Origin: a virus
Length of the DNA stretch: 23,147 bases
IMG/VR virus record: IMGVR_UViG_3300020202_000216
Location: 1 to 23,147 of that record
Direction: 5' to 3' (one strand)
Shown here: positions 3,546-23,147 of the stretch, in pieces
Layout: each line of letters starts with the position of its first letter
Numbering within the stretch: position 1 is the first letter of the stretch
Position numbers and translations under genes: made by a program
The notes under the pieces: model-generated
The model's database searches: none
Seen by the model: only the letters and a program-made list of their open reading frames with translations
What the model was told of the DNA's origin: nothing

Positions 3546-5480
3546 ATGAAAAACCTGACACTTGAGCAACTACAGAAAGAAATCATCGGGCGAGAGCTAA
3601 AGCTTGCCGCTCCGATTGAGCGCGCGGCAGTCGACCGCGAAAACCGCACTGCTGAAATTGCCATCACGTCAGACAAGCCTATCGAGCATTGGTTTGGCCG
3701 CTTAATCCTCAATCACGAAAAAAAGTGCATCCGAATGCAGCGCATCAAGAACAACGCGCCTGCGCTGCTCGAACACGACCGCGCGCAAAAAATTGGCGGG
3801 CTGCTCAACGTCAACACTGACGGGCACGTGCTGAGAGCAACAGTGAAGTTTTCGCGCTGCCCTGAAGCTGACCGCGAGCTAAACGACATTGAGGACGGCA
3901 TACCGCGCAGCATTAGCGGCGGCTTCATCATTCACGAATTGCACCTTGAATCAGAAGACAAGGACGCTGGCATCAGAACCTACAAGAGCGACGATTGGGA
4001 ACCGCTAGAAGCTTCCTTCGTGACCATCCCTGCCGACATCAGCGTTGGCGTGGGCCGCTCGCTTACGACCCGCGAGGAAGACGCACGGCACGCTGAAGAT
4101 TGCGAGTGCAACGCCTGCACCGAAAACCGCGAAGCCGCGACAGACACCGATTCCGAACGCTCCCTTGAGAGCGAACCTGTAACAGCCGCGCAGCCGCGCG
4201 TTGAATCCGTAACGGAGAGGAAATCAAAACCTATGATCGAGAACGTTGAATTTTACATCCGGCTTTTCCCTAACGAAGCGGAATTTATTCGGGATTACGC
4301 GATTTCAGCCGACGCCACAGAGGAAGGGCTGAAAGCGAAAATCGCGGAGCGGCGCGCAGCGGCTCAGACCGAAATCCCGAAGCCACAGCCGAAGGTTAAT
4401 TTGCAGCCGAAAGACGCCAAGAACTACTCGGTGGCACGCGCCATCACCGCGCTCGTAGCTTTGGCAGAGGGCCGCGTTAACGACGCGAAATGTTTTGAGC
4501 TTGATGTCCATCAGGACTTGGAGCGCGCACTGAAACAGCAAGGTATTGTTACGCGCGGCGGCGTGCTGATCCCAACCGGCATCCCGAAAGACGTTCTCAA
4601 GCGCGCGGGACTGGACACTGCCACAGCCACAGCCGGCGCGGAATCGGTTTACACCGAATACGGCGGCTTCATTGAGTACCTTTACAACATGGCGAAGGTG
4701 CTGAGTCTGGGCGTCACCAAGCTGACCGGGCTAAACGGCAACGTGTCATTCCTGAAGCAAACGGGCAAAGCCACTGCCTCGTGGGTTGCGGAAAACCCCG
4801 GCAGTGATGTATCGGATAGCAACCTCACAACCGGCAGCGTTACGCTGTCGCCCAAATCGCTGATGTCCTCGACAAGTTTCAGCCGCCAACTGCTCGCGCA
4901 AGCGGTAATCAATATCGAAACCCTTGTGCAAATGGACTTGGCTAAATCAATGGCGCTGGAAGTTGACCGCGCGGCCATTCACGGCAGCGGATCGAGCAAT
5001 CAGCCGCTCGGCTTGTACGGCATCAGCGGCGTCAACGCCAAAGCCTTCGGCGGCGCGATGACCAAAGACATCCTGACGGACATGGAAACGCTGATCGCGG
5101 AAGACAACGCAGACCTCGGCGCGGCGGCATTCCTGACCACGCCCGGCGCTGTTGGCAAGGGTAAAAAGACGCTCGAATTTTCAGCCGCAGGCAGTCAGGC
5201 GCTTTGGCACGACGGCAAGCTGAACGGCATTCGCTGCGAAGCGACAAACCAAGTCAGCGCCGTGATGAGCGGCAGCAACCCAACGGGCGGAAGCTCACAC
5301 GGCATCGTGCTGGGCACGTGGTCTGAATTCCTCTGGGCTGAATGGGGCGTGATGGAACTCATCACTGACCCGTACCGCTTGAAAAAACAGGCGATGATTG
5401 AAATCACCAGCTTCTTGATGTGTGACTTTGACGTGCGCCATCCCGAAGCCTTCTGCAAAGGCACGGGCCAAACAGTTTAA
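3546..5480 (+). CDS. Fused HK97-type prohead protease and major capsid protein
   Basis: A single 644-residue frame. Residues about 15-170 are an HK97-type prohead serine protease: His77 in LLEHDRAQ, Ser122/Ser124 in IPRSISGGF and the WEPLEASFVTIPAD motif (151-164) fit the expected catalytic region. Residues about 175-300 are a charged linker holding CECNAC (187-192) and a helical scaffold-like (delta-domain) part. Residues about 310-644 are an HK97-fold major capsid protein, with GGVLIPTGIPKDVL, SSNQPLGLYGI and a late RLKKQAMIEI. The protease should cut itself from the shell protein during maturation. ATG 4233 (Met230) lies in frame in the linker with GGAGAGGAAA upstream, so a separate capsid product of 415 residues is possible. 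The start at 3546 has only a weak AGG ribosome site. Confidence 0.92.
   Translation: MKNLTLEQLQKEIIGRELKLAAPIERAAVDRENRTAEIAITSDKPIEHWFGRLILNHEKKCIRMQRIKNNAPALLEHDRAQKIGGLLNVNTDGHVLRATVKFSRCPEADRELNDIEDGIPRSISGGFIIHELHLESEDKDAGIRTYKSDDWEPLEASFVTIPADISVGVGRSLTTREEDARHAEDCECNACTENREAATDTDSERSLESEPVTAAQPRVESVTERKSKPMIENVEFYIRLFPNEAEFIRDYAISADATEEGLKAKIAERRAAAQTEIPKPQPKVNLQPKDAKNYSVARAITALVALAEGRVNDAKCFELDVHQDLERALKQQGIVTRGGVLIPTGIPKDVLKRAGLDTATATAGAESVYTEYGGFIEYLYNMAKVLSLGVTKLTGLNGNVSFLKQTGKATASWVAENPGSDVSDSNLTTGSVTLSPKSLMSSTSFSRQLLAQAVINIETLVQMDLAKSMALEVDRAAIHGSGSSNQPLGLYGISGVNAKAFGGAMTKDILTDMETLIAEDNADLGAAAFLTTPGAVGKGKKTLEFSAAGSQALWHDGKLNGIRCEATNQVSAVMSGSNPTGGSSHGIVLGTWSEFLWAEWGVMELITDPYRLKKQAMIEITSFLMCDFDVRHPEAFCKGTGQTV
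4215..4235 (+). promoter_or_regulatory. Possible internal ribosome site and in-frame start for the capsid domain
   Basis: GGAGAGGAAATC is followed about 12 nt later by ATG 4233, in frame with the protease-capsid fusion and placed after the protease domain and before the scaffold/capsid part. The spacing is long, so use is uncertain. It recalls nested scaffold/capsid starts in other phages. Confidence 0.35.
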
Positions 5481-11159: not shown

Positions 11160-11608
11160 TGCCATACGAAACGCTTGATGATTCTGGATTCATTTTCGAG
11201 CAAATCGGGCTACAGGCGCGGCGGCTCACGGCTAACTATGGCGACGGCTACACCGCAGGCGCGCGACTTGGCTCAGTGCAGGGCTTGCGAGCTTGGCGCG
11301 TTCGCGTTGATTGCTTGCCTGACATCCACATCGCTGGCGGCGGCGAATCGTACCCAGAGACTCGCGCGCGTTACCTGTGGGAGTTTTGGCGCAAACACAA
11401 GCTCGAATTGGACTCGGAGATTTTTATCATGCGTGACCCGTTCCCTGATGACGTGACACGCACGGCTGACAAGGTATTCGCGCGCTTTGTCGAAAACGAA
11501 CTCAACTACGGCCTTGACACTGAATATCTGTTCAATACCGGGCTGACGATTATGCAGGCCAGAGTGAAGAGTCTGGACGCGAACGATTACAACCCGCAAG
11601 AGATTTGA
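11159..11608 (+). CDS. Minor tail protein, gpM-like
   Basis: A 149-residue beta-rich protein immediately after the tape measure gene and overlapping its stop (TAATG). The RRLTANYGDGYTAGARLG segment near residue 22 matches the FGDGY-type motif of the lambda M family, followed by a strand AWRVRVDCLPD. The second half has EFWRKHKLEL, FARFVENELNYGLDTEYLF and a C-terminal strand. gpM-type proteins form the ring linking tail tube to tip. Order H-M-L is conserved here. Its TGA overlaps the next ATG (TGATG). Family assignment is by motif and position; an alternative is a distal-tail-like protein. Confidence 0.75.
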   Translation: MPYETLDDSGFIFEQIGLQARRLTANYGDGYTAGARLGSVQGLRAWRVRVDCLPDIHIAGGGESYPETRARYLWEFWRKHKLELDSEIFIMRDPFPDDVTRTADKVFARFVENELNYGLDTEYLFNTGLTIMQARVKSLDANDYNPQEI

Positions 11609-13749
11609 TGATTTGGCTGCCTGACCTAGCATCGGAAGATTTCAGCGCAATCAAGGCGCTGCAATCGCCGTTGGTGTGTGAGCTAATCCGCGTGGACTGG
11701 CCGCAGCCGGACGGCACGACTTGGTATTGCTCGACCGAAGCGGGCGAAGTCTTCGGCGCGAGCTTGCCGGATGAAGTCTCGCCATTAGAAGTCCGATTCG
11801 AGCAGGATCAGTTGCAAACGCTGCCGATTGAGGACGGCATCTCAGACAGCCACATTGACCTGAAGTTTTGGGACGGTGACGGCGCGATCCGCGCGCTACA
11901 TCGTACTCACAGTTTCGGCCATCGCGTCGAAGTCTTCTATTGGTTTCCCGAAACCGGACTATTGCTCAGCCAGTGGCACGGGCAGTTAGGCAGTCCTAAA
12001 GAAATTGGCTGGACGCACTTCACCGTGCCCGTCACCTACGGTTATCGAAGCAGCCTTCAGCCCTTACCTTCACGCGCGTTTTGGCCTAGCTGCTCTGCCA
12101 TCTTCGGCGCACTGAGAGAAACGCAGGCGGAAATTGACGAAGGCGATTGCCCCTACAACCGTCATCTGCCGGGCGGCTTGTTCGGCAATCTTAACGGCTC
12201 TGACCCGTTCACCGAATGCCCGCGCAACAGTCGAACAGTTTGCGAGGCGCGGCTTGGCGACTCCCTGAGCTATCTCGGCTTTGATACCGTGCCTGACCTG
12301 TACCCGAACGGCAAGCTCTATTCCATCGTTCGCGGCAATGAAAACAACCTCAAGCGACCGCTCAGGCGCGTCTACGGCGCGCAGTACGTTGACGATCTGG
12401 ACTTAATGGGCTACGCGGTGGACGTGAACACAAAGCATCCTGACAAGGGCTGGGTACTGTGCTTGTTCGCGGTGTGCGAAGGCCGCGTTAGCTATATCAG
12501 CGAATTCGAGATCAATAATATTTTGGTTGGATGGGAGCATCAAACCTATCGCACGGGAGAGAAGCGACAGAGCAAAACTTTCTTCAGTCCGAACGTGGGC
12601 AACTATTCCGGCACAGCTTTAGTTGTTGGCCGTATTCAGGGCAACTTTCAAAATACATCAGGCGGCGACCTCAAAGGCCGCGTGTACTGCGGCGGGGCTG
12701 ACGACATCAAGATTTACTCCGGCCCTGACACTTACACGGTAGGCTATACGACAAATCCCGCGTGGGTATTCCTTGACGCCTGGACAAATGAGCGTTGGGG
12801 GCACGCGCAAGGCCGCAACCTGCCGATTCAGGACGTGATTGACTTGGCCGCGTGGTGCAATGAAACCGTGACCACGCTGGACGCGGCAGGCGATCCGGTT
12901 GTCAGCACGCGCGCCACGTTCATCGGTCAATTGCTCGACAAGACAGCGCAGCGGCATTTCTATGACCTGTGCTTGGCGGCACGCTTTACGCTGCCATTTC
13001 CACATCGCGGGCAAACGCGAATAATGGGACTCAGTAAATGGGAAAACCTAGACCTTGCGCCCGTGTTCTCAGACCGGGGCGAAGATCGAAATATTTGCTT
13101 GGAAGACGAATCAAACGAAGGCTCACACAGCAGCGTGAAGGCGAGCCAATTGGACGCGAAAGAATTACCGTTTCGCGTGATTGTGACTTTCCGCGATGCC
13201 GCGAGCAAGAACCAAGAGCGACCGCTGATTTTTGAAGACGTTGAATTAAAGCTCAAAGCGCGGGCCGCTGGCGCAGACCCGAACAGCAGTAAAAAGTATT
13301 CGCTGCTCGGCGTGTCGGACATCGGGCAGGCTATTCGCTGCGGCAATTTGCTTTTGGACTTAGGGCCATTTGACGGCACAACCGATGACGGCGGCGGGCG
13401 CAAGAATAATTTCCGCGTCGAATTTGTGACGTGGTTTAGCCAGACGCTCGACTTGCACAAGTACAAAGTCATCAAAGTTGACTCGGCGCTGATCGAAGAT
13501 TACGGCTTCAGTTATTTCCGCATCTGCAATATGGAGCGCACGTCTGATTTGCACGTCCGCATTACAGCGCAGGCTTACCCTGAAGAGTATTACGAACAAG
13601 TAGAGTCAGAAGAGGCTGCGGATTTGTATATCCCTGGCGGCGGCTATGACCCGAATCCTGGCGGCGGCGCGGGGGACTTCCCTTACCCAATCGGGTTTGG
13701 GACTGTGGACTATACGAATGACCGAATCATTTTCAGCTTAGGAAGTTAG
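11608..13749 (+). CDS. Tail-tip protein, gpL-like N-terminus joined to a hub-like C-terminal region
   Basis: A 713-residue protein. Start at ATG 11608 (TGATG overlap); a TTG one codon earlier is less likely. Residues about 1-230 resemble lambda gpL: FEQDQLQTLPIEDGISD, HRVEVFYWFPETGLLLSQWHGQLG, then four Cys at 162, 181, 204 and 212 ahead of GDSLSYLGF. Lambda gpL binds a 4Fe-4S cluster with four Cys near its C-terminus, and the last two gaps (22 and 7 residues) are very close. The remaining 480 residues include a HFYDLCLAARFTLPF stretch and an ending FSYFRICNMERTSDLHVRIT.AQAY, as in phage hub (J-like) proteins. The very C-terminus is Gly/Pro-rich. The fusion interpretation is inference. Confidence 0.72.
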   Translation: MIWLPDLASEDFSAIKALQSPLVCELIRVDWPQPDGTTWYCSTEAGEVFGASLPDEVSPLEVRFEQDQLQTLPIEDGISDSHIDLKFWDGDGAIRALHRTHSFGHRVEVFYWFPETGLLLSQWHGQLGSPKEIGWTHFTVPVTYGYRSSLQPLPSRAFWPSCSAIFGALRETQAEIDEGDCPYNRHLPGGLFGNLNGSDPFTECPRNSRTVCEARLGDSLSYLGFDTVPDLYPNGKLYSIVRGNENNLKRPLRRVYGAQYVDDLDLMGYAVDVNTKHPDKGWVLCLFAVCEGRVSYISEFEINNILVGWEHQTYRTGEKRQSKTFFSPNVGNYSGTALVVGRIQGNFQNTSGGDLKGRVYCGGADDIKIYSGPDTYTVGYTTNPAWVFLDAWTNERWGHAQGRNLPIQDVIDLAAWCNETVTTLDAAGDPVVSTRATFIGQLLDKTAQRHFYDLCLAARFTLPFPHRGQTRIMGLSKWENLDLAPVFSDRGEDRNICLEDESNEGSHSSVKASQLDAKELPFRVIVTFRDAASKNQERPLIFEDVELKLKARAAGADPNSSKKYSLLGVSDIGQAIRCGNLLLDLGPFDGTTDDGGGRKNNFRVEFVTWFSQTLDLHKYKVIKVDSALIEDYGFSYFRICNMERTSDLHVRITAQAYPEEYYEQVESEEAADLYIPGGGYDPNPGGGAGDFPYPIGFGTVDYTNDRIIFSLGS

Positions 13750-13934: not shown

Positions 13935-14195
13935 ATGCCAAGTAACTATCAAGGCTTTCGCGTTGATTACAACAAAGAGGATGGCACTGAGCCTGTCGCG
14001 TTCCCGTCGCAAACCGTCAAAGTGCGCGACGTGACGAACAGCGCAGACCTTGCAGACCTGACCGCTGACGGCAGCGGCGACGTTGCGAGCGGCACGCTGG
14101 ACGTGGCAGTTGGAACCACGATCAGATTTTATTTTCAAGTCACAAGTGGTACGCACAAAGGCGTGTCTGCTTTCAAGGAAATCGTCACAACGTAA
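13935..14195 (+). CDS. Small phage protein of unknown function (86 aa), beta-rich
   Basis: An 86-residue protein with alternating strands (FRVDYNKEDG, QTVKVRDVTNSADLADLTADG, GTTIRFYFQVTSG). The D-x-D-G turn and short beta repeats look like a small carboxypeptidase-regulatory/Ig-like fold as used in tail decorations, but no family is identified. It has no membrane segment or Cys. Weak ribosome site; translation may be carried over from the 59-residue gene. TAATG overlap with the next gene. Position after the tail-tip gene suggests a tail-associated protein. Confidence 0.65.
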   Translation: MPSNYQGFRVDYNKEDGTEPVAFPSQTVKVRDVTNSADLADLTADGSGDVASGTLDVAVGTTIRFYFQVTSGTHKGVSAFKEIVTT

Positions 14196-14413
14196 TGGCT
14201 GCAAAAGTAAAAATCATCCATTGGTTAATTTGGAAGCTAAGCAACGCAATAGCACGACTTGGATGCTGGCTGAACGGCTATCACATCGCAGCAAAGACAG
14301 AGAGCTACACCGTCAAAGGTGAACGGATCACATATCGTTGCTGTCTTTGCTGTGGGCTTTGGCGCAGCGCGTGGAGACTGCCAAATCATCCGTTGGTAAA
14401 AGAACATGGCTGA
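14195..14413 (+). CDS. Small Cys-rich protein (72 aa), unknown function
   Basis: A 72-residue, Trp- and Cys-rich basic protein: HWLIWKLSNAIARLGCWLNGY, then YRCCLCCGLWRSAW and NHPLVKE. The CCLCC cluster (residues about 48-52) could bind metal as a short zinc-ribbon-like knuckle, with Cys24 or nearby His as further ligands. ATG overlaps the upstream TAA (TAATG) and its end overlaps the next ATG by 8 nt, both supporting real translation. An overlapping frame at 14083-14322 is a shadow. Function unknown; a tail-assembly or regulatory role cannot be chosen. Confidence 0.6.
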   Translation: MAAKVKIIHWLIWKLSNAIARLGCWLNGYHIAAKTESYTVKGERITYRCCLCCGLWRSAWRLPNHPLVKEHG

Positions 14414-15044
14414 CCTGACCGCAAAAAAGTGCCGGGGCATCAACCTGCAAGCCCGCGATTGCAGCAAAGCGCGCTGGTATCCTGACCCGACTGCGCCCGC
14501 CGCTTGGGTTGAAGTGTGGGCAGTGGACACTGACAAGCCCGTGACCTTTGAACACGCGACACTCATTGGCCGCTACGCGCCGGGCCAGCAGGACATTGCC
14601 ATTGACTACAACCCTGCGACTGACCGCTACAAGGAACTGCGCGCCGTGACCTATTCGGCGGCGGGCGTACCCAACGTGCGCTACTTGGACGACGCGCCAG
14701 CCGTGACGGTGCTGTTCTCGCGCTTGGGCGACCCGGCAGTTATCGCGCAGACCAGTTACGACCCGCTGAATATTTCAATTTCCATCACTGGGTTTTCTGA
14801 ATTCACGACCGCGATGCACTTGCAGGAAGCGACGGATTCAGGATTCACCAGCCTAATCACGGATTTCGTTTTCACGGGCGCTGCCGCCACATCTACGAGT
14901 TGGTGGTTTTCGCGTTCAAGTTCGCCGGGGCAGCCCAGCGAAACGCGCTACGTGCGCGTGCGGCATTCGTCAACCGGGGCAAGCGGCCCCTGGACGGATT
15001 GGAGTAATGAGTTGGCGATATTCTTCTACGAGGAACCCCTATAA
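14406..15044 (+). CDS. Putative tail protein with fibronectin-III-like part
   Basis: A 212-residue protein. Residues about 25-110 (WVEVWAVDTDKPVTFEHATLIGRY, DRYKELRAVTYSAAGVPNVRYL) look like a beta-sandwich. Residues about 120-205 (ISITGFSEFTTAMHLQEATD, ETRYVRVRHSSTGASGPWTDWSNE) match a fibronectin-III-like module, whose final W-S-N-E turn is typical. Such modules decorate tail tips and fibres. It has no signal peptide, unlike the fibres downstream. It is the last gene before the lysis genes. Family not recognised; the tail assignment comes from place and module type. Confidence 0.62.
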   Translation: MADLTAKKCRGINLQARDCSKARWYPDPTAPAAWVEVWAVDTDKPVTFEHATLIGRYAPGQQDIAIDYNPATDRYKELRAVTYSAAGVPNVRYLDDAPAVTVLFSRLGDPAVIAQTSYDPLNISISITGFSEFTTAMHLQEATDSGFTSLITDFVFTGAAATSTSWWFSRSSSPGQPSETRYVRVRHSSTGASGPWTDWSNELAIFFYEEPL

Positions 15045-15085: not shown

Positions 15086-15523
15086 ATGGGAGTCAATGCC
15101 GAAGGACTGGCAATCATCAAGCAACACGAAGGGCTACGGCTCACTGCCTATTACTGTCCGGCTGGCGTGCTGACGATTGGCTACGGGCACACAGGCAGCG
15201 ATGTAACGCCGGGCCGGCGCATTGACGAGGCTACGGCGGAGGCGCTGCTGATTGGCGACGTGGCGAGATTTGAGCAGGTTGTACGCGAGTCGGTGAAAGT
15301 GCCGCTCAACGAAAACCAGTTCAGCGCGTTGGTCAGTTTTGTTTACAACATCGGGCCGGGCGCGTTTCAAAAATCATCACTGCTGCGCTTCCTGAATCTC
15401 GGTGAATACACCGTAGCGGCCAACCAGTTCGGCAATTGGGTATTCGCGGGTAAGAGGCGATTGGCAGGGCTTGAGAAGCGGCGCGCGGCTGAGAAGGCTT
15501 TATTTCTAAAGGCGAAACAATGA
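15086..15523 (+). CDS. Endolysin, GH24 lysozyme (T4/P21 type) with Glu-Cys-Thr triad
   Basis: A 145-residue muramidase that cuts peptidoglycan at the end of infection. The catalytic Glu15 in KQHEGLRL is followed by Cys24 and Thr30 (spacing E-x8-C-x5-T), a known variant of the E-x8-D-x5-T triad. GYGHT (residues 32-36), the QFSALVSFVYNIGPGAFQKSSLL stretch and NWVFAGKRRLAGLEKRR are classic GH24 features. There is no SAR or signal peptide, so it needs a holin or a partner to reach the wall. The ribosome site is poor; no earlier in-frame start exists after the upstream stop. Its TGA overlaps the next ATG (ATGA). Confidence 0.93.
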   Translation: MGVNAEGLAIIKQHEGLRLTAYYCPAGVLTIGYGHTGSDVTPGRRIDEATAEALLIGDVARFEQVVRESVKVPLNENQFSALVSFVYNIGPGAFQKSSLLRFLNLGEYTVAANQFGNWVFAGKRRLAGLEKRRAAEKALFLKAKQ

Positions 15524-15774
15524 ACAACCGTCTGTTATTTGTATTAATAATTCTTTCTCTGGTGTTGACCAGCCTCAAAGTCAGCGCCGTGCCCGCTGAG
15601 TATATGTGGATTGCTGAGCTTCTTAAAAGTGTAGGCGATGCGCTTATGCTCGCGGTTATGGCTTACAAAAACCCTGACGGCTCATCGGCAAGACTGCCCT
15701 ACGTCGCGCGCCTGCCTAAAGGCTTCGTGCCGAAGCGCGGGCCTGAAGACGGCGAATCTATTTATAGGCGATGA
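15520..15774 (+). CDS. Small exported or membrane-anchored protein (84 aa)
   Basis: An 84-residue protein coupled to the lysozyme (ATGA). Residues 1-23 form a signal peptide or anchor: MNNR, then LLFVLIILSLVLTSL, with a possible cut after VSA. A second moderately hydrophobic stretch, MWIAELLKSVGDALMLAVMAY, follows at about 29-49, then a Pro/Arg-rich tail LPYVARLPKGFVPKRGPEDG. If the first segment is not cleaved, two membrane passes are possible and it could be a small holin or lysis helper. No family is recognised. Its stop overlaps the fibre ATG (ATGA). Confidence 0.7.
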   Translation: MNNRLLFVLIILSLVLTSLKVSAVPAEYMWIAELLKSVGDALMLAVMAYKNPDGSSARLPYVARLPKGFVPKRGPEDGESIYRR

Positions 15775-17990
15775 ATCGATTACTTTTTACATTCCTGCTC
15801 GCGCTGTTCTCGCTGCCATCGCTCGCGCAGCCTGACAGTGACCTGTATTGCCACGTCACGGGCACGCTTGAGCCGATGTTGCCGGGCGTCCCTGCCGCAA
15901 ACGTGCAGGTGAAAGTGTTGCGCGTGGTGAAGGCGGGCGTGCTGGTTGTCGCAGCGCCGCAGTCCTTCGCGTCCAACGCGGACGGCGAAGTTGATTTCTA
16001 TTTACGCAGAGGCTCTACGGCGTGTTTTTACGCGGCGGTGGAAGGGTTGAATCGTAATCCAACGACGGGGACTTGCTTCGCCATCCCTGACGCGACGACG
16101 GCGGATTTTAATACTCTCGTGCCAGTCACGTCGGTTTCAACATCAATCAGTTTCCCGTCTCAGTCCGGCAATTCGGGCAAGTGCCTTTCAACGAACGGAT
16201 CGGCTCTTTCATGGGCCACGTGTGCGGCGGGCGGCGGCAGTGGCACGGTGACGAGCTTCAGCGCGGGCAACCTTTCGCCATTGTTTACGGGCAGCGTTGC
16301 CAATGCGACCACGACGCCTGCGCTCACTTTCTCGCTGTCTGCGCAATCAGCCAATCGCATTTTCGCCGGGCCAACGACGGGCAGCGCAGCCGCTCCGACG
16401 TTTCGGGCATTGGTAGCAGCAGACATTCCTGACCTGAGCGCGACCTATGCGGGCGCAAGTCACGCGCACACGTTTGCGAGCTTGACATCCAAGCCGACCA
16501 CTCTCGGCGGCTACGGAATCACGGACGCACAGGCGCTCGATGCCGACCTGACGGCGGTTGCTGGCTTGTCTGGGACAAGCGGGCTACTGCGCAAAACGGC
16601 TGCCGATACTTGGTCACTCGATACTAACACTTATTTGACTGGCAACCAGACGATCACGCTTAGCGGCGATGTCACTGGCAGTGGCGCTACTGCGATTTCA
16701 GCGACCATCGCCAACGATGCTGTTACTTTCGCTAAGTTGCAAAACATCAGCACGAATAAGCTTCTAGGGCGTAGCACGGCAGGCAGTGGGGATGTAGAGG
16801 AAATTAGCATCGGCTCAGGACTGAGCTTGAGCGGCGGCACGCTGAGCGCGACGGGCGGGGGCGGGGGTAGTAGCTCTTGGGATGCAATTACATCCCCGGC
16901 GGGTAATCAATCTCTTGACATGTCCGCGCACACAACGACGTGGACAGCGAATACAGGTATCACGAACGCTGTCAACACACTTCTTACGATTGGTCACAAC
17001 ACCAGCGGTACGCCAGCAGCGAATTTCGGCACAAGGTTGCTATTCAAGGGTGAATCAACTACTACCACTGACAGGGAGATTGCGGCGGTTGACGCAATCT
17101 GGACAACGGCAACTGATGCATCACGTCAAGGGGCGGTAGTGTTTTCGGCGGGGAATGGGAGTTTCGGCACCTTTGAAATTGCAAGGTTTTACTATGACGA
17201 TTCACGCCGGTTGCAGTTTAACTCTACGACCACTATCGGCACCGGCAGCGCGGACAATATCGGGCTGGATGTTTTCGGGCAAGTCGGAATCGGGCATCGC
17301 GGCTCAACTTTTAATGCGACTTTAGAGGTGAAGGCAGTAAATAATACCGCCGTCGCACTGCTTGCTAATACAGCCGCCAGCCCTAGCGTTCCCATTGCGC
17401 AATTCAAAATCAACAGCGCGAATGCGGTAAATATCAGCGAAAAATCTTCGCTTGACATTTACAACGGCACTGCGCCCACTGCGTCAGTAACGGACGGGAT
17501 TCGGATTTACAGTGAGGACGTTTCGACTTCGGCAGAGGCGCGTGTTAGGGATGAGGCAGGGAACGTGACAACCTTCAGCCCGCACAATTTCACACTCTTT
17601 CAGCCATCACAGACTGACCCTGCCATCCCGTTCAGTTACTACTCCAAGAACGTCTACATCGGCAAGGAAATGAGCGTTGATTGGCTGGGCGTGATTCGAG
17701 AACTGGAAAGATTGAGCGGCAAAACGTTTATCGCGCTGCAAAACCTTCCGGCCAACGAAATCCGCGATTGGGACACCGACGAAGAAACGAAACGATTGCA
17801 GCGCGAGCAAGAGCGGGCGGATTGGCAGGCGCGAAAGACTCAGCGCGAGCGCGAGCAGGCGGATTTTGACGCCCTGCCAGCGGAGCAGAAACAAGGTAGG
17901 ACGCGGCCAGCAGATTTCACTGAAACACAACCGCAGCCGTACACCAAGCGACCAGAACCGCAATACATCAAGGACAGGAAACCGAAATAA
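15771..17990 (+). CDS. Fibre-like protein with N-terminal signal peptide (739 aa)
   Basis: Residues 1-19 look like a Sec signal peptide: MNRLLFTFLLALFSLPSLA then QPDSD. Residues about 25-120 form a beta-rich, carboxypeptidase-regulatory-like module with Cys27, 85 and 102. From about 130 comes phage-fibre material: GKCLSTNGSALSWATCA (Cys138/151), LVAADIPDL, TITLSGDVTGSG, a Gly linker at 362-366, and GIRIYSEDVSTSAEARVRDEAGNVTT near 570. The final 110 residues are charged and helical, starting SVDWLGVIRELERLSG, and end in a Lys/Pro-rich tail. Receptor-binding or adhesive role is inferred. A signal peptide is unusual for a fibre assembled in the cytoplasm. ATGA overlap with the upstream small gene. 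Confidence 0.8.
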   Translation: MNRLLFTFLLALFSLPSLAQPDSDLYCHVTGTLEPMLPGVPAANVQVKVLRVVKAGVLVVAAPQSFASNADGEVDFYLRRGSTACFYAAVEGLNRNPTTGTCFAIPDATTADFNTLVPVTSVSTSISFPSQSGNSGKCLSTNGSALSWATCAAGGGSGTVTSFSAGNLSPLFTGSVANATTTPALTFSLSAQSANRIFAGPTTGSAAAPTFRALVAADIPDLSATYAGASHAHTFASLTSKPTTLGGYGITDAQALDADLTAVAGLSGTSGLLRKTAADTWSLDTNTYLTGNQTITLSGDVTGSGATAISATIANDAVTFAKLQNISTNKLLGRSTAGSGDVEEISIGSGLSLSGGTLSATGGGGGSSSWDAITSPAGNQSLDMSAHTTTWTANTGITNAVNTLLTIGHNTSGTPAANFGTRLLFKGESTTTTDREIAAVDAIWTTATDASRQGAVVFSAGNGSFGTFEIARFYYDDSRRLQFNSTTTIGTGSADNIGLDVFGQVGIGHRGSTFNATLEVKAVNNTAVALLANTAASPSVPIAQFKINSANAVNISEKSSLDIYNGTAPTASVTDGIRIYSEDVSTSAEARVRDEAGNVTTFSPHNFTLFQPSQTDPAIPFSYYSKNVYIGKEMSVDWLGVIRELERLSGKTFIALQNLPANEIRDWDTDEETKRLQREQERADWQARKTQREREQADFDALPAEQKQGRTRPADFTETQPQPYTKRPEPQYIKDRKPK

Positions 17991-18013
17991 CCGCTGTCGC
18001 AGGTAAGCAGCGG
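17991..18013 (+). repeat. Perfect inverted repeat between fibre and lipoprotein genes
   Basis: CCGCTG and CAGCGG pair perfectly around an 11-nt loop starting at the first base after the fibre stop. There is no T run, so a rho-independent terminator is not supported; it may protect the 3' end of the mRNA. Confidence 0.4.
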
Positions 18014-18042
18014 CCCGTACTAGAACGAAAAGAGGAACCAAA

Positions 18043-18747
18043 ATGAAAAAACTAATCTCCATTGCTCTTACACTCTCAATTCTATTCATTGCAGTGGCAG
18101 CGCCTTCGTGCAACAAGCCCAGCCAAGAGGTGCGCCTTGTCCGCGCAATTGCCAGTGCGCCTGTCGGACTCAAGGCAGCGAAAGACATCATCGCCGTGCT
18201 GCGTCAGAGCAACGATGTGTCGCAGGACGTAAAAAACAAAGTGGATCAGGTGTGCGACAAAACCGAATCCGCTGTTGAGCAAATCGCTGGCGACATTCGC
18301 GCTGGTAAGTTTGACGCGGACACGCAGCGGCAGTGGGATAAGTTGCTGACCAACGCTTTGATCGAGGCTCAGGCGCTCGCGCCGCTCATCAAGCAGGACA
18401 TTGACCCGCGCTTTCGTGAGTGGCTGGACGTGGCGCTTTACACGATCCCCGCGTTCAAGGCGCTGATAGATCAGATCAAGCCGCCGCAGCCGCCAGCGCA
18501 AACGCTCATCAATAAGGACGCGAAACACGAAGGCAACCCAAACCCAAGCATCAGGCCGGGCGAAGTCAGCGCAATTGTTTCTATCAGCACGGCAGCGGCA
18601 ATCAAGCTCATCTCGGTTCTGCGCGACAGTAACATCCAATCGCTGTGGGACAGGTACGATGCTTATAAGTCGGAATACCACAGCGGCGACGGCGCGGCTA
18701 TCAGCGTGAAGGTCACGAAGAAGGGGAGAACGAAGACCTTGAAATAA
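18043..18747 (+). CDS. Putative phage-encoded lipoprotein (234 aa)
   Basis: Strong ribosome site (AGAGGAA, 8 nt before ATG). MKK followed by a hydrophobic core and A-P-S-C with Cys23 suggests a lipoprotein signal; the -3 Ala and -2 Pro are less usual, so plain cleavage is possible. The mature part is mostly helical and charged, with a Pro-rich linker at about 147-153. Residues 45-58 (AAKDIIAVLRQSND) and 185-198 (AAIKLISVLRDSNI) look like a repeated helix. Cys71 is the only other Cys. No family is recognised. Placed before a holin-like gene, it may help lysis at the outer membrane or modify the lysogen surface. It is much longer than known outer-membrane spanins. Confidence 0.72.
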   Translation: MKKLISIALTLSILFIAVAAPSCNKPSQEVRLVRAIASAPVGLKAAKDIIAVLRQSNDVSQDVKNKVDQVCDKTESAVEQIAGDIRAGKFDADTQRQWDKLLTNALIEAQALAPLIKQDIDPRFREWLDVALYTIPAFKALIDQIKPPQPPAQTLINKDAKHEGNPNPSIRPGEVSAIVSISTAAAIKLISVLRDSNIQSLWDRYDAYKSEYHSGDGAAISVKVTKKGRTKTLK

Positions 18748-18782
18748 ACTTCATTAAGACTGCCTCTCCCTTAACAGTTTCC

Positions 18783-18808
18783 CCTCACCGCTCCCCAAGC
18801 CTGTGAGG
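18783..18808 (+). promoter_or_regulatory. Hairpin enclosing the ribosome site of the holin-like gene
   Basis: CCTCAC (18783-18788) pairs with GTGAGG (18803-18808) around a 14-nt loop. The 3' arm holds the GAGG ribosome site, 4 nt before ATG 18813, so folding would hide it and slow holin synthesis. TTTT follows, so weak termination is an alternative reading. Confidence 0.45.
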
Positions 18809-18812
18809 TTTT

Positions 18813-19124
18813 ATGACACGAAGACAGACGATGCACATGCACATCATGGACGTAACGGGAAGCACAATCTTAGGAGTGGTGTTGGGGCTGACTACGCTGC
18901 TAGTCCCTTCCGCGCCTGACGGCGTGAACGGGGCGGCGCTGCAAATCACGGCGACGCTTATCGGCTCAGTTCTCTCCCTGCTGGTTACGCATTTCTTGCG
19001 CAAGTGGCTCGAAAAGAAAACCCGCAAGCGGCGCAAGAAACGCGCCGCCAAACCGCAGACCGAGGCGGGCACGGAAGAAGTGCCAGATCGTAAGACGCGA
19101 ACGGCAACAACCCGCAAGAACTAA
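18813..19124 (+). CDS. Probable holin (two membrane segments, basic C-terminus, possible dual start)
   Basis: A 103-residue membrane protein. Two hydrophobic segments (about 17-33, STILGVVLGLTTLLVPS, and 44-62, ITATLIGSVLSLLVTHFL) are separated by a short polar turn. A strongly basic tail follows (RKWLEKKTRKRRKKRAAK). This is the layout of two-pass holins, which form holes for the lysozyme. The N-terminus MTRRQTMHMHIMD has Met1, Met7, Met9 and Met12; a long form would carry two extra Arg, as in dual-start holin/antiholin genes. GAGG 4 nt before Met1 favours 18813. Separated from the lysozyme by fibre and lipoprotein genes. Alternative: unrelated small membrane protein. Confidence 0.68.
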   Translation: MTRRQTMHMHIMDVTGSTILGVVLGLTTLLVPSAPDGVNGAALQITATLIGSVLSLLVTHFLRKWLEKKTRKRRKKRAAKPQTEAGTEEVPDRKTRTATTRKN

Positions 19125-19139
19125 TTTGACTGACTAAGT

Positions 19140-22100
19140 ATGAAAAATCTTTTCCTTAAACTTCTCATTGTCGCACTGCTCACTCCGCAGTTACATCGGC
19201 CTGTTTTGGCCGCTTCGTGGGTTGATCCGGTAGCCGTCAGTTTCTCGGCAGCCGTGCCCGTCACTGTGCAGAGCGTTATCCAACTACAGGGCAGCGACGG
19301 CGACGGCACAGCCTTGACATTCTCAATCGTCGGCAGCCCAAGTCACGGCGCGTTGTCGCAACTGAACGCTTCCACTGGCGCAGTGGTCTACACGCCGACG
19401 GCAGGCTACACGGGCAGCGATTCGTTTACTTACAAAGTCACGTCAGGCGGCGCGGACTCCAACACGGCAACAGTTAGCATCACTGTGACTGCGGCCAAGA
19501 CGCGCATCGTGCATACGTTCCTTGATCCTGGCGGCAACCCGCGCGCGGGTAAGGTGACTTTCATTCTCTCGGAAGTCGCGCAAAGCCCATCGGGTTTGAT
19601 TGCGCCTAAAAGCAGCGTTTCCTGCACGCTCAACAGCAGTGGTGTCTGTGATATTCAAGTGTACCCGTCGCGCAGCCTAAGCCCGGTGCAGTATTACCAA
19701 GTCAATTTTGAAGACACTGCCAAGCGGCAAGTGCAACTGCTCGGCATCTACGATATTCCGGCCAGCACAACAACGATTTCTTTGAACGGCTATCGCGTCA
19801 CGGATACGAACTTGGCAGCCCGCTACACTTTCGCCAGCAAAGCTGAAGTGGACGCTTTGACGACCGCAGTAGTAGCCGCTACTACGGCGGCACTGTTCCC
19901 CTCGCTCACGACCGGCAAGCTGATTTTTTTCAACGGTACTACTTTTGTTAGTTCCATCGTCAGTGAATCGGGCGGCAACCTTACCGTTGCGGGCGGGCTT
20001 ACTGCTACGACGCTGAGCGGCAACGGTAACGCGATCACGAACCTTAACGCCGCGAATCTGAGTGGCACGCTGCCCGCGCTGAATGCTTCCAACCTGACAA
20101 GCATCCCTGCCGGAAACCTTGCCGGCACGGTCGCAGACGGACGCCTGAGCGGTAACGTGACACTGCTCGGCAACACCGCAACGGGCAGCGGTTCGATTGT
20201 GCGGGGCACTTCGCCAACTATCGCAGCGCCCACGCTGACAGGCACGGCGACGGCGGCAAACATCACAGCCAGTGGCACGGTCACGGCAAATAATTTCGTC
20301 GGCAATGGCTCAGGGCTGACCGGCATCACGGGCGCGACAGGCGGCGTTGCCAATACGGGCACAACCACGATTGGCAGCGACACCGACAGCAGTGGCAATG
20401 AAGTCACAGTGATTCAGACGCAAGGCACGACGCGCCTGCAAGTCTCTTCAACAGAGATCAAGGCCACTGTGCCGATCATTGATTACGGCGGCAGGCATTA
20501 CGGCGTGGAGTCGTGGGCTTCCTTAGCGGCGGCTGTAACCGCGATGGGAACAACGAATGAGGCGCGGCTACTCGTTTCCAAACCGCTCACGATTTCGAGC
20601 AATGTTACGATCACGAAAAACATCACCGTCGAGTTCACGAACACGGGGATGCTGAATGTTGATAATGGCGTCATTGTGGATTTTCGCCGCACGCCAATTG
20701 CTGACCCGAATCAAAGGATTTTCACCCTGACCGGCACGGGCCGCGTCATCTTCGGCGGCGTGGACTGCACGGGCGGTTGTAATGCGTCGGCGATGAACCC
20801 AGCGATGGACGCACTGCGCGGCAACGTCTTTCACGCCGGGTGGTGGGGCTGGCGCGGCGACTGGAACGGCACGACAGGCACAGACAATTCTACTGTCGCG
20901 GCGAAAATTGCGGACGTTTTACCGAACGGCTCAACTCTTCATTTGCCGGCGGGGGCGGCGCGCATCACGGCAGAATGGGCGATCAACAACCGGCGACAAA
21001 TTCAGGTCATCGGAGCGGCCCCTGTTGGCGACGTGAACACGTCTGCTGACCATATCACGTCACTTGTCTATGATGGCGCTGCGGGCGGCACGATTTTGCA
21101 CTTAGGGAGAGTGCGCAATTCGACTTTCTCGCAGATTTTCCTGTCAGCGCGCGGGCTGGTTGACAAGGGCGTGTATTTTGATAATGGCAGCGGCACGGCA
21201 GGCGACATCAGTACGAGCAACACGCTCTACGACGTGACGATTTATGGCGAAGGGAACCGTGCCAATTTCATCGCGGTGGATATTGGCAACGCGGCCAACG
21301 GTAATAACGATGAATTTCATAAAATCATCAGTTGCCACATTCGCGGCGGCTTGCAATTCGGCCCCTGGGAAGGATCAGGGAACACCGGAACCGGGATCAA
21401 GATCAGACATGCTAATGTGAAGGCGATCAAAATCATTGACACCGTCATTTCTCAGTGCGCCATTGGTGTTGATTTGGCGGCTGGCAGTTATAAGGTTGAA
21501 AAAGGACATAACGGGTACAACAACATCGGTCACAGAATTGGCGTTGCCGGTGAACCTATCGAAATCGAAGAAGAGTCTGAGGGACTTGAACAAGTATTAG
21601 TCGTGACAGGCGGCGGTCAGCCAATCAAGTTCAAAAATGGTCGCTATGACCGAGACACGAACGTAACCAACCTTGCCACGCTCAGCAAGCCACTATTTGA
21701 TTTAGGCTCGGCGGGACAGGCGTTAGAGCTTGATAACACCTTTATCGGCGGGTTTCATCATCAACTCGGTGCGCCCTGGACGACGAATAACATTTATGTT
21801 TTTCGCTCTACGAATACGGGCGCGCAGGCTTCGCTGAAGTTCAACCACGTCACGTATTACAATTTAACCACCAAAACTCTTTACGATAACTGGGCAACGT
21901 TTGGCGCGGTCGCAATCAACGGTCAGCAATTCGTCGCCAACGCCACGGAAGGTGCGGGAAATGGCATAGGCGGCATCATCAACGGACTGACTGTTCCCCT
22001 CGCGGTAGTAGAAGGCGGGTCAAATAACGCGGCCACTGCGTTTGTGGACTGCACGCCCGGCACGGTTTGTCTAGGCGGCGGGGTGGAAGTCACAGCCCAA

Positions 22101-23147
22101 AACCCGAACCGGCCAAATCTTGCGCTGTCCGGCACGCACGGCGGCAGTACGCAGCATTGTTTCGCTATCGTGGGTCTGGATAGTGCAGGGAATAAGACGA
22201 AAGCGACGTACCCGACTTGTACAAGCACCGCCAACGCCACGCTTGATTCAACTAACAAAATTGATCTCTCCTGGGCTGCCATTCCCAATATCGCTACCTA
22301 CGATGTCATCGCCATGAACAATGGTAACGGGGAGCAGTGGCGGTTAGTGACCAACACAGCCAGTACCAGTTATAGCGTCGTTGCTAATCCCTCCGGCTCA
22401 TTTGACTATGTGCGTCCTGCCTATAACCAAGCTTTGAGCCTCCTGTTCCGGGGCAACAAAATCTTCACCGACAATGTTGACACCACGAAGCGATTTCACT
22501 TCAACGTGTCAGGCGTCTCGACAGGCACTGACCGTGAAATCGCTGTTCCGAACCGCAACGGCACGATGGCCTTCACGTCGGGCACGCTCACTAATAACAA
22601 CTGCGCGAAATTTGATGCGTCAGGAAACCTGGTTGATGCAGGTACAACTTGCGGCGGCAGTTCACTGACGATCAACAGCACCGATACCGCTATCCCCTAT
22701 CGCTCGAATTCCACCACGTTTGCAAACTCGCCTCTTTTCCGCGTGGATGCTAATACGATGGCGCAGAGAAACGGAACGACATCACAGGCATTTCAGGTGT
22801 ACAAGAGCTATACCGATGACTCGAATTACGAGCGACTGGGGATCACGCCGACTTTAATTGTTTTCGCTACTGCGGGCACGGGAAGCCCGTCTGATTTCAC
22901 TATCCGCAATGCCAGCGGGTTTTCCACGTTTTACGATTCTGGTGCGCATGCCTTTCGCAGCAGCAACGGCAGTACAACCTGGTGGCAAGTAAACACGAGC
23001 GGGCATTTAGTTCCGGGCGCAGACAACACCCGCGAAATGGGGAGTTCAAGCGTTCGTCCCTCTGCCGTGTGGACGGTAAAGACTTGCTACATAACCAACG
23101 TGTGTGATTTCTACGGAAGCGGCTCGCCTGAAGGCGCGGTGACGGCT
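19140..23147 (+). CDS. Giant exported tailspike/adhesin-like protein, 3' end beyond window (at least 1336 aa)
   Basis: Translated by hand from ATG 19140 to the last base with no stop. Residues 1-24 form a signal peptide (MKNLFLKLLIVALLT...PVLA). Residues about 40-118 are a cadherin/Big-type Ig domain (GDGTALTFSIVGSPSHG, YTPTAGYTGSDSFTYKV). About 120-220 is a second beta module with Cys162/170. About 280-400 is fibre-like (AANLSGTLPALNASNLT, NNFVGNGSGLTGI). About 450-900 looks like a right-handed beta-helix of the pectate-lyase-like type (WWGWRGDWNGTTGTDNS, then TLHLPAG). About 960-1095 is fibronectin-like. The rest is fibre-like (YERLGITPTL, LVPGADNTREMGSSS). It could bind or cut host polysaccharide. 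No Shine-Dalgarno site is seen before the ATG. Confidence 0.78.
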   Translation, partial: MKNLFLKLLIVALLTPQLHRPVLAASWVDPVAVSFSAAVPVTVQSVIQLQGSDGDGTALTFSIVGSPSHGALSQLNASTGAVVYTPTAGYTGSDSFTYKVTSGGADSNTATVSITVTAAKTRIVHTFLDPGGNPRAGKVTFILSEVAQSPSGLIAPKSSVSCTLNSSGVCDIQVYPSRSLSPVQYYQVNFEDTAKRQVQLLGIYDIPASTTTISLNGYRVTDTNLAARYTFASKAEVDALTTAVVAATTAALFPSLTTGKLIFFNGTTFVSSIVSESGGNLTVAGGLTATTLSGNGNAITNLNAANLSGTLPALNASNLTSIPAGNLAGTVADGRLSGNVTLLGNTATGSGSIVRGTSPTIAAPTLTGTATAANITASGTVTANNFVGNGSGLTGITGATGGVANTGTTTIGSDTDSSGNEVTVIQTQGTTRLQVSSTEIKATVPIIDYGGRHYGVESWASLAAAVTAMGTTNEARLLVSKPLTISSNVTITKNITVEFTNTGMLNVDNGVIVDFRRTPIADPNQRIFTLTGTGRVIFGGVDCTGGCNASAMNPAMDALRGNVFHAGWWGWRGDWNGTTGTDNSTVAAKIADVLPNGSTLHLPAGAARITAEWAINNRRQIQVIGAAPVGDVNTSADHITSLVYDGAAGGTILHLGRVRNSTFSQIFLSARGLVDKGVYFDNGSGTAGDISTSNTLYDVTIYGEGNRANFIAVDIGNAANGNNDEFHKIISCHIRGGLQFGPWEGSGNTGTGIKIRHANVKAIKIIDTVISQCAIGVDLAAGSYKVEKGHNGYNNIGHRIGVAGEPIEIEEESEGLEQVLVVTGGGQPIKFKNGRYDRDTNVTNLATLSKPLFDLGSAGQALELDNTFIGGFHHQLGAPWTTNNIYVFRSTNTGAQASLKFNHVTYYNLTTKTLYDNWATFGAVAINGQQFVANATEGAGNGIGGIINGLTVPLAVVEGGSNNAATAFVDCTPGTVCLGGGVEVTAQNPNRPNLALSGTHGGSTQHCFAIVGLDSAGNKTKATYPTCTSTANATLDSTNKIDLSWAAIPNIATYDVIAMNNGNGEQWRLVTNTASTSYSVVANPSGSFDYVRPAYNQALSLLFRGNKIFTDNVDTTKRFHFNVSGVSTGTDREIAVPNRNGTMAFTSGTLTNNNCAKFDASGNLVDAGTTCGGSSLTINSTDTAIPYRSNSTTFANSPLFRVDANTMAQRNGTTSQAFQVYKSYTDDSNYERLGITPTLIVFATAGTGSPSDFTIRNASGFSTFYDSGAHAFRSSNGSTTWWQVNTSGHLVPGADNTREMGSSSVRPSAVWTVKTCYITNVCDFYGSGSPEGAVTA

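Follow-up and report, generated by a model that had tools for sequence, protein, structure and literature searches.

In the textbook account, tailed-phage assembly is completed in the cytoplasm, and ordinary tail fibres are folded there and carry no signal peptide. Late phage proteins that pass through Sec are known from the secreted and SAR endolysins, such as Lys44 of phage fOg44, which are sent out before lysis and are used when the holin fires (review PMC6116005). PblB of Streptococcus pneumoniae prophages is a tail-fibre-like protein that has a carbohydrate-binding C-terminus as well as a predicted signal peptide, and has been described as an adhesin (PMC4508584). The virion of Agrobacterium phage Milano contains an extensive disulfide network (PMC10491603).

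The stretch of DNA analysed here (the window) is a linear IMG/VR fragment of 23,147 bases that represents a siphovirus-like late region. We lean towards regarding its two long genes at 15771 and 19140 as encoding a tail fibre and a tailspike that would pass through Sec, fold in the periplasm and attach to virions at lysis, a reading that we hold to be somewhat probable. The two proteins and their homologues resemble the fibres and beta-helix tailspikes of tailed phages in their position after a J-like protein, in their DUF5907 repeats, stalk and beta-helix or hydrolase C-termini, and in the combination of a constant N-terminus with an exchanged C-terminus, but differ from ordinary tail fibres in having a Sec signal peptide and disulfide-like Cys pairs. 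Like PblB they are tail-fibre-like phage proteins with a predicted signal peptide (PMC4508584). However, PblB belongs to a Gram-positive host and is described as an adhesin, while a recurrent fibre/spike set beside J is present here; the comparison is one of described features. With the secreted and SAR endolysins they would share the passage of late proteins through Sec ahead of lysis, but those are lysis enzymes, whereas here the exported proteins are fibres and the endolysin is unsignalled. The features of the window are as follows.

From 3: terminase (profile matches)
1259: head-tail joining protein
1897: portal
3546-5480: capsid, 644 aa
6316: tail terminator
6608: major tail protein
8148: tape measure
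11605..13749, plus strand: J-like tail tip protein (PHROG central tail fiber J, E 4e-5; homologues with 30-67% identity in 8 IMG/VR contigs)
13935..14195, plus strand: conserved small protein encoded between J and the fibre genes (39-47% identity to genes of 80-90 aa directly after J in L083, L088, L089 and L091)
14406..15044, plus strand: protein conserved ahead of the fibre gene in relatives (28-39% to genes at the same position in L082, L083, L088, L089 and L094)
15086..15523, plus strand: endolysin (phage lysozyme) of the cytosolic type without signal (PF00959, E 4.8e-47; phrog_7 endolysin, E 4.5e-61)
15520..15774, plus strand: 84 aa protein with a predicted N-terminal signal peptide (from sequence)
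15771..17990, plus strand: putative exported tail-fibre-like protein with N-terminal domain, DUF5907 repeat and C-terminal coiled-coil-like tail (PF19264, E 6.4e-12); Cys pair in GKCLSTNGSALSWATC (Cys pairing p 0.009)
15771..15827, plus strand: signal peptide of fibre 15771, predicted cleavage SLA/Q after residue 19 (slash, cleavage; position kept in homologue L061:7242)
18043..18747, plus strand: helical, putatively exported protein with a weak lipobox APSC (from sequence)
18813..19124, plus strand: holin-like protein with two TM segments, a basic C-terminus and no signal peptide (from sequence)
19140..23147, plus strand: putative exported tailspike-like protein with signal peptide, Ig-like Big_9 domain (PF17963, E 5e-12), second beta domain, coiled coil, stalk and probable beta-helix; 14 Cys in close pairs (Cys pairing p 2.5e-4)
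19140..19211, plus strand: signal peptide of spike 19140, predicted cleavage near VLA/A (AlphaFold2 helix 3-14, then low-confidence linker 14-26)

The capsid ORF (3546-5480, 644 aa) also matches phrog_4523, a fused head-and-protease family, which means that one ORF holds both protease and capsid. A PADLOC search gave nothing meaningful. The first-pass annotation, made from the sequence without database searches, had described the genes at 15520, 15771, 18043, 18813 and 19140 as one cassette of five proteins with N-terminal export-type segments. The five ORFs are present and consecutive, but instead of a single cassette we find two fibre/spike genes interleaved with lysis-type genes, namely endolysin 15086, holin-like 18813 and two small exported proteins. 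The N-termini of 15520, 15771, 18043 and 19140 are indeed signal-peptide-like, while that of 18813 is not; its two TM segments and strongly basic Lys/Arg-rich tail fit the holin-like membrane protein that had been suggested and are those of a class II-type holin (two TM segments and a charged C-terminus), with no holin or other family above cut-off in searches. The gene 15520, which overlaps stop to start with both endolysin 15086 and fibre 15771 and had no match in family searches, possibly encodes a lysis regulator or part of a spanin. For 18043, where family searches likewise gave no match above cut-off, the N-terminus is clearly signal-like, but its earlier label as a probable lipoprotein is uncertain because the lipobox is poor: APSC, with Pro at -2, departs from [LVI][ASTVI][GAS]C. 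We regard 18043 as a candidate spanin.

Signals were called by a simple in-house rule, which demands a core of 10 residues that are neither charged nor strongly polar, a net positive charge before the core and small residues at -3/-1. By this rule 15520, 15771 and 18043 are signalled and 18813 is unsignalled. Both 15520 (MNNRLLFVLIILSLVLTSLKVSA, followed by V) and 15771 (MNRLLFTFLLALFSLPSLA, followed by Q) have a charged n-region and a hydrophobic core, followed by a site that signal peptidase I could plausibly cut. The N-terminus of 19140 (MKNLFLKLLIVALLTPQLHRPVLA, followed by A) has the layout MKNLFLK-LLIVALL-...VLA/A with a short core and a long c-region; a lysine close to the core makes it fail the strict rule, and it is less canonical than the signals of its homologues. 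The Sec/SPI layout of positive n-region, hydrophobic core and AxA-type site is therefore seen in 15771 and its homologues, and only loosely in 19140. The window and seven related phage records together hold 93 ORFs of 300 aa or more; 10 of these passed the rule, and all 10 are fibre or spike genes downstream of the J-like gene (enrichment with 19140 added by hand, Fisher p about 1e-12). Close to where cleavage is expected, an AxA/Q-type motif occurs in 21 of 28 signalled fibres vs 12 of 87 unsignalled ones; among the 21, the motif of L082:9962 is probably spurious.

It is very improbable that the signals are an artefact of wrong start codons. Such cases do occur, and L005:6432 appears to gain its signal from an upstream start. 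However, the conserved domain follows directly after the signal with no suitable start between: the next in-frame ATG of 15771 is codon 36, within the conserved domain, and the first 70 codons of 19140 are free of in-frame ATGs. Ribosome-binding-like motifs precede several signalled starts, and the homologue alignments agree with one another and contradict an artefact. As far as can be judged from sequence, the signals of 15771 and 19140 are neither chance nor wrong starts. In two other fibre ORFs (L113:7734-9665 and L114:403-2334) a signal peptide begins at an internal Met, downstream of the first start; such a signal would be missed by gene callers that choose the longest ORF.

Relatives were fetched from IMG/VR with the 19140 N-terminus and the J-like protein as queries. 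Eight contigs carry the same J family (L087, L088, L089, L091, L094, L083, L082 and L084/L061), and the J-like gene 11605..13749 is the synteny anchor common to all of them. In four independent phages (L061/L084, L082, L083, L089) J is followed by 19140 homologues with 44-55% identity, each with its own clear signal peptide. In a four-sequence alignment of the Big_9 proteins, identity is 33% in the signal columns vs 60% in the mature columns, and each sequence keeps the layout of charge, core and small residue. The order in L061/L084 is J, a signalled Big_9 fibre, a 103-aa gene and two further signalled fibres; the Big_9 fibre shares 44% identity with residues 1-262 of 19140, signal included, and the last signalled fibre shares 31% with the N-terminal domain of 15771. 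L082, L083 and L089 have a first signalled fibre (L082:8419, L083:8897 and L089:4185, alignable from residue 1) and then the signalled Big_9 protein. The contigs L087 and L091 end after J. An unsignalled fibre or tailspike occupies the fibre position after J in L088 (J 46%) and L094 (J 41%), that of L088 being a beta-helix tailspike. Several proposals of the first-pass annotation are upheld by this comparison. The same gene set recurs beside the same tail genes in L061/L084, L082, L083 and L089, and the fibres of the late region carry real export signals, as homologues keep them and none of the 93 large ORFs passes the rule except fibre/spike genes after J. Homologues starting downstream of the hydrophobic segment had been named as a point against export, but the 19140 homologues, including the one at 44% identity, keep this segment at their own start.

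Two comparisons of N-termini added less. The signalled L007 and the unsignalled L094 show a weak N-terminal match (25%, E 2e-6), which is only suggestive of kinship. The YPGALD start of L158 was considered as an unsignalled version of the second fibre of L082, L083 and L089 and was dropped, since the alignment gives no support for homology. Just downstream of the three signalled fibres, L061 also carries an unsignalled concanavalin-like lectin gene (L061:10355-11176; Laminin_G_3, E 1.3e-25).

Parts of both proteins are akin to known fibres and spikes. The repeats of 15771 (DUF5907) align at 43-74% identity with many phage fibres, residues 366-511 of 19140 (the stalk) are homologous to the unsignalled tailspike L088:13306, and L082:9962 matches PF12708 and tail spike PHROGs. 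The 19140 gene runs past the contig end, so that its C-terminus is cut off; its beta-helix had no direct match in family searches, and the full-length protein as a direct query found none. AlphaFold2 modelled the N-terminus (pLDDT 77) as a short helix 3-14, a low-confidence linker 14-26, two beta domains and a coiled coil, while the model of the middle region (pLDDT 35) was discarded. With the N-terminus as query, Foldseek mostly matched single Ig-like domains at low TM-score, and these matches were not taken as proof. Among the best PDB matches (E 7.5e-6, TM-score about 0.3) were collar proteins of Milano and 7-7-1, two Agrobacterium phages with disulfide-rich virion appendages (PMC10491603). 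However, this match covers the Ig-like domain only, and the Milano collar protein gp13 has no signal peptide.

Cysteines distinguish the signalled fibres by their spacing. The fibre 15771 has GKCLSTNGSALSWATC where the unsignalled fibre L002 has GQVLSTNGSGVLSWTAG, and among fibres with at least 4 Cys close pairing is strong in 16 signalled ones (combined p 5e-16) vs 16 unsignalled ones (p 0.59). Because some of the signalled fibres had been retrieved with a cysteine-containing pattern, the Cys content of this set is biased; restricted to the signalled fibres of the J family, pairing still gave p 2e-6. Overall cysteine content did not differ significantly in the set not fetched by the Cys motif (p 0.26) and was rejected as evidence, leaving the pairing statistic to be used alone. 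The disulfide-like pairs point to an oxidising compartment, as support and not as proof, because the disulfides of the Milano virion can form without export signals (PMC10491603). That disulfide-rich virions exist without export would also suit an improbable alternative, in which the hydrophobic N-termini stay uncleaved and serve to insert the fibre in the tail tip or to aid membrane contact, the proteins remaining cytoplasmic until lysis. The atypical signal of 19140, with its short core and long c-region, could be read in the same way. Nevertheless, the recurrent peptidase-like AxA/Q sites fit cleaved export signals, the signal sequence turns over rapidly while its character is preserved, and the Cys pairing is restricted to signalled fibres, all of which argue against uncleaved segments.

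The Big_9 proteins share a common N-terminus and have exchanged their C-termini, for a pectate-lyase beta-helix in L082, an alpha/beta hydrolase plus a virion structural family in L089 and a plain fibre in L061. This constant N-terminus with a swapped C-terminus is, on alignment, the modular pattern of receptor-binding proteins, a role that J itself could also have. In L089 (L089:6332-8809) the alpha/beta hydrolase and the virion-structural-family domain replace the beta-helix of the relative L082. The enzyme-like C-termini of L082 and L089, together with export signals and disulfide-like pairing, are also what one would expect if the signalled proteins were exported but never became part of the virion, acting as soluble or cell-associated depolymerases or adhesins that are released at lysis and strip or coat the surface polymers round the cell to the benefit of progeny phages. 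We consider this main alternative unlikely, though it has a partial precedent in PblB, the tail-fibre-like adhesin of pneumococcal prophages for which a signal peptide is predicted (PMC4508584). Against it, the conserved part is the N-terminus, as expected for a virion anchor, the C-terminus of the L089 protein matches the virion structural family phrog_10356 (E 1.2e-30), and the proteins sit at the tail-fibre position after J, in L089 in an apparently whole genome without another fibre candidate. The L089 record (G006, 52.8 kb) has the tape measure at one end and J at the other; because the gene order continues across the ends, the genome looks circularly permuted and near complete. A scan of its other large proteins returned head, portal, terminase, tape measure, replication, helicase, regulator and partition functions. 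The two signalled proteins are the only candidates found for any fibres that L089 may have.

There are phage-encoded proteins whose site of action is the lysogen surface, and given their export signals the fibres might likewise be displayed there as superinfection blockers, adhesins or biofilm factors. The first-pass annotation had offered such display next to loading from the periplasmic side; the latter is our preferred reading, whereas display is quite improbable. The genes are tightly packed in a late operon, and a promoter search in the late block found no separate forward promoter for the fibre genes. An outer-membrane anchor, translocator, autotransporter or sorting domain was found neither in 15771 nor in the intact homologues of 19140, whose own C-terminus is cut, and no integrase was seen in the window. 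Both lysogen display and uncleaved anchors are less likely than exported proteins that stay free of the virion.

For periplasmic loading, export of 15771 and 19140 is well supported by their predicted signals, while we infer cleavage, periplasmic folding and attachment to virions at lysis. Carrying what we take to be genuine Sec signal peptides, both proteins would be exported through Sec in the late phase. Signal peptidase I would cleave both signals, and fibre and spike would fold and form disulfides in the periplasm. Once the inner membrane has been breached by the holin and the wall by the endolysin, tails built in the cytoplasm would meet the waiting fibres and bind them via the conserved N-terminal domains. 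If true, one portion of the virion would be made outside the cytoplasm, where disulfide chemistry and periplasmic chaperones are available. The annotation of receptor-binding proteins in such environmental phages would then change, as a signal peptide would cease to count against calling a protein a fibre, and so would their expression for study and their use as depolymerases.

Beyond the J family, a clear signal was found in 5 of 80 fibre loci fetched with 15771 (L005, L007, L014, L040 and L061) and in about half of the 36 loci fetched with the cysteine-motif region. The signalled loci among these 36 include the sheath-bearing (contractile-tail) phage L107 and the AT-rich L125/L126, with several signalled genes in a row. 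Since signalled fibres occur across these fetched loci, the trait is recurrent in unrelated phages. It is possible, though we put it forward tentatively, that a widespread class of tailed phages from several unrelated lineages has a split assembly line, in which the receptor-binding fibres are exported by Sec, acquire their fold and disulfides in the periplasm and are not attached to tails until lysis. No description of Sec-exported tail fibres as a class was found in the open-access literature. Isolate phages yielded no J homologue and no close fibre relative, and the four distant INPHARED matches that were inspected hold no signalled fibre. In the search for hosts, 84,980 bacterial and archaeal species genomes were scanned with the spike N-terminus and with the J alignment, and no relative was found. 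In L107 a signalled 12-cysteine fibre gene (L107:7887-11099) has head-completion genes on one side and the tail sheath gene on the other, and two smaller signalled genes lie close by. The AT-rich contig L125 contains a run of signalled ORFs (L125:4078-13451; 458, 178, 1050 and 485 aa plus smaller ones), one of them lipoprotein-like, and possibly represents a Bacteroidota phage version of the signalled-fibre trait.
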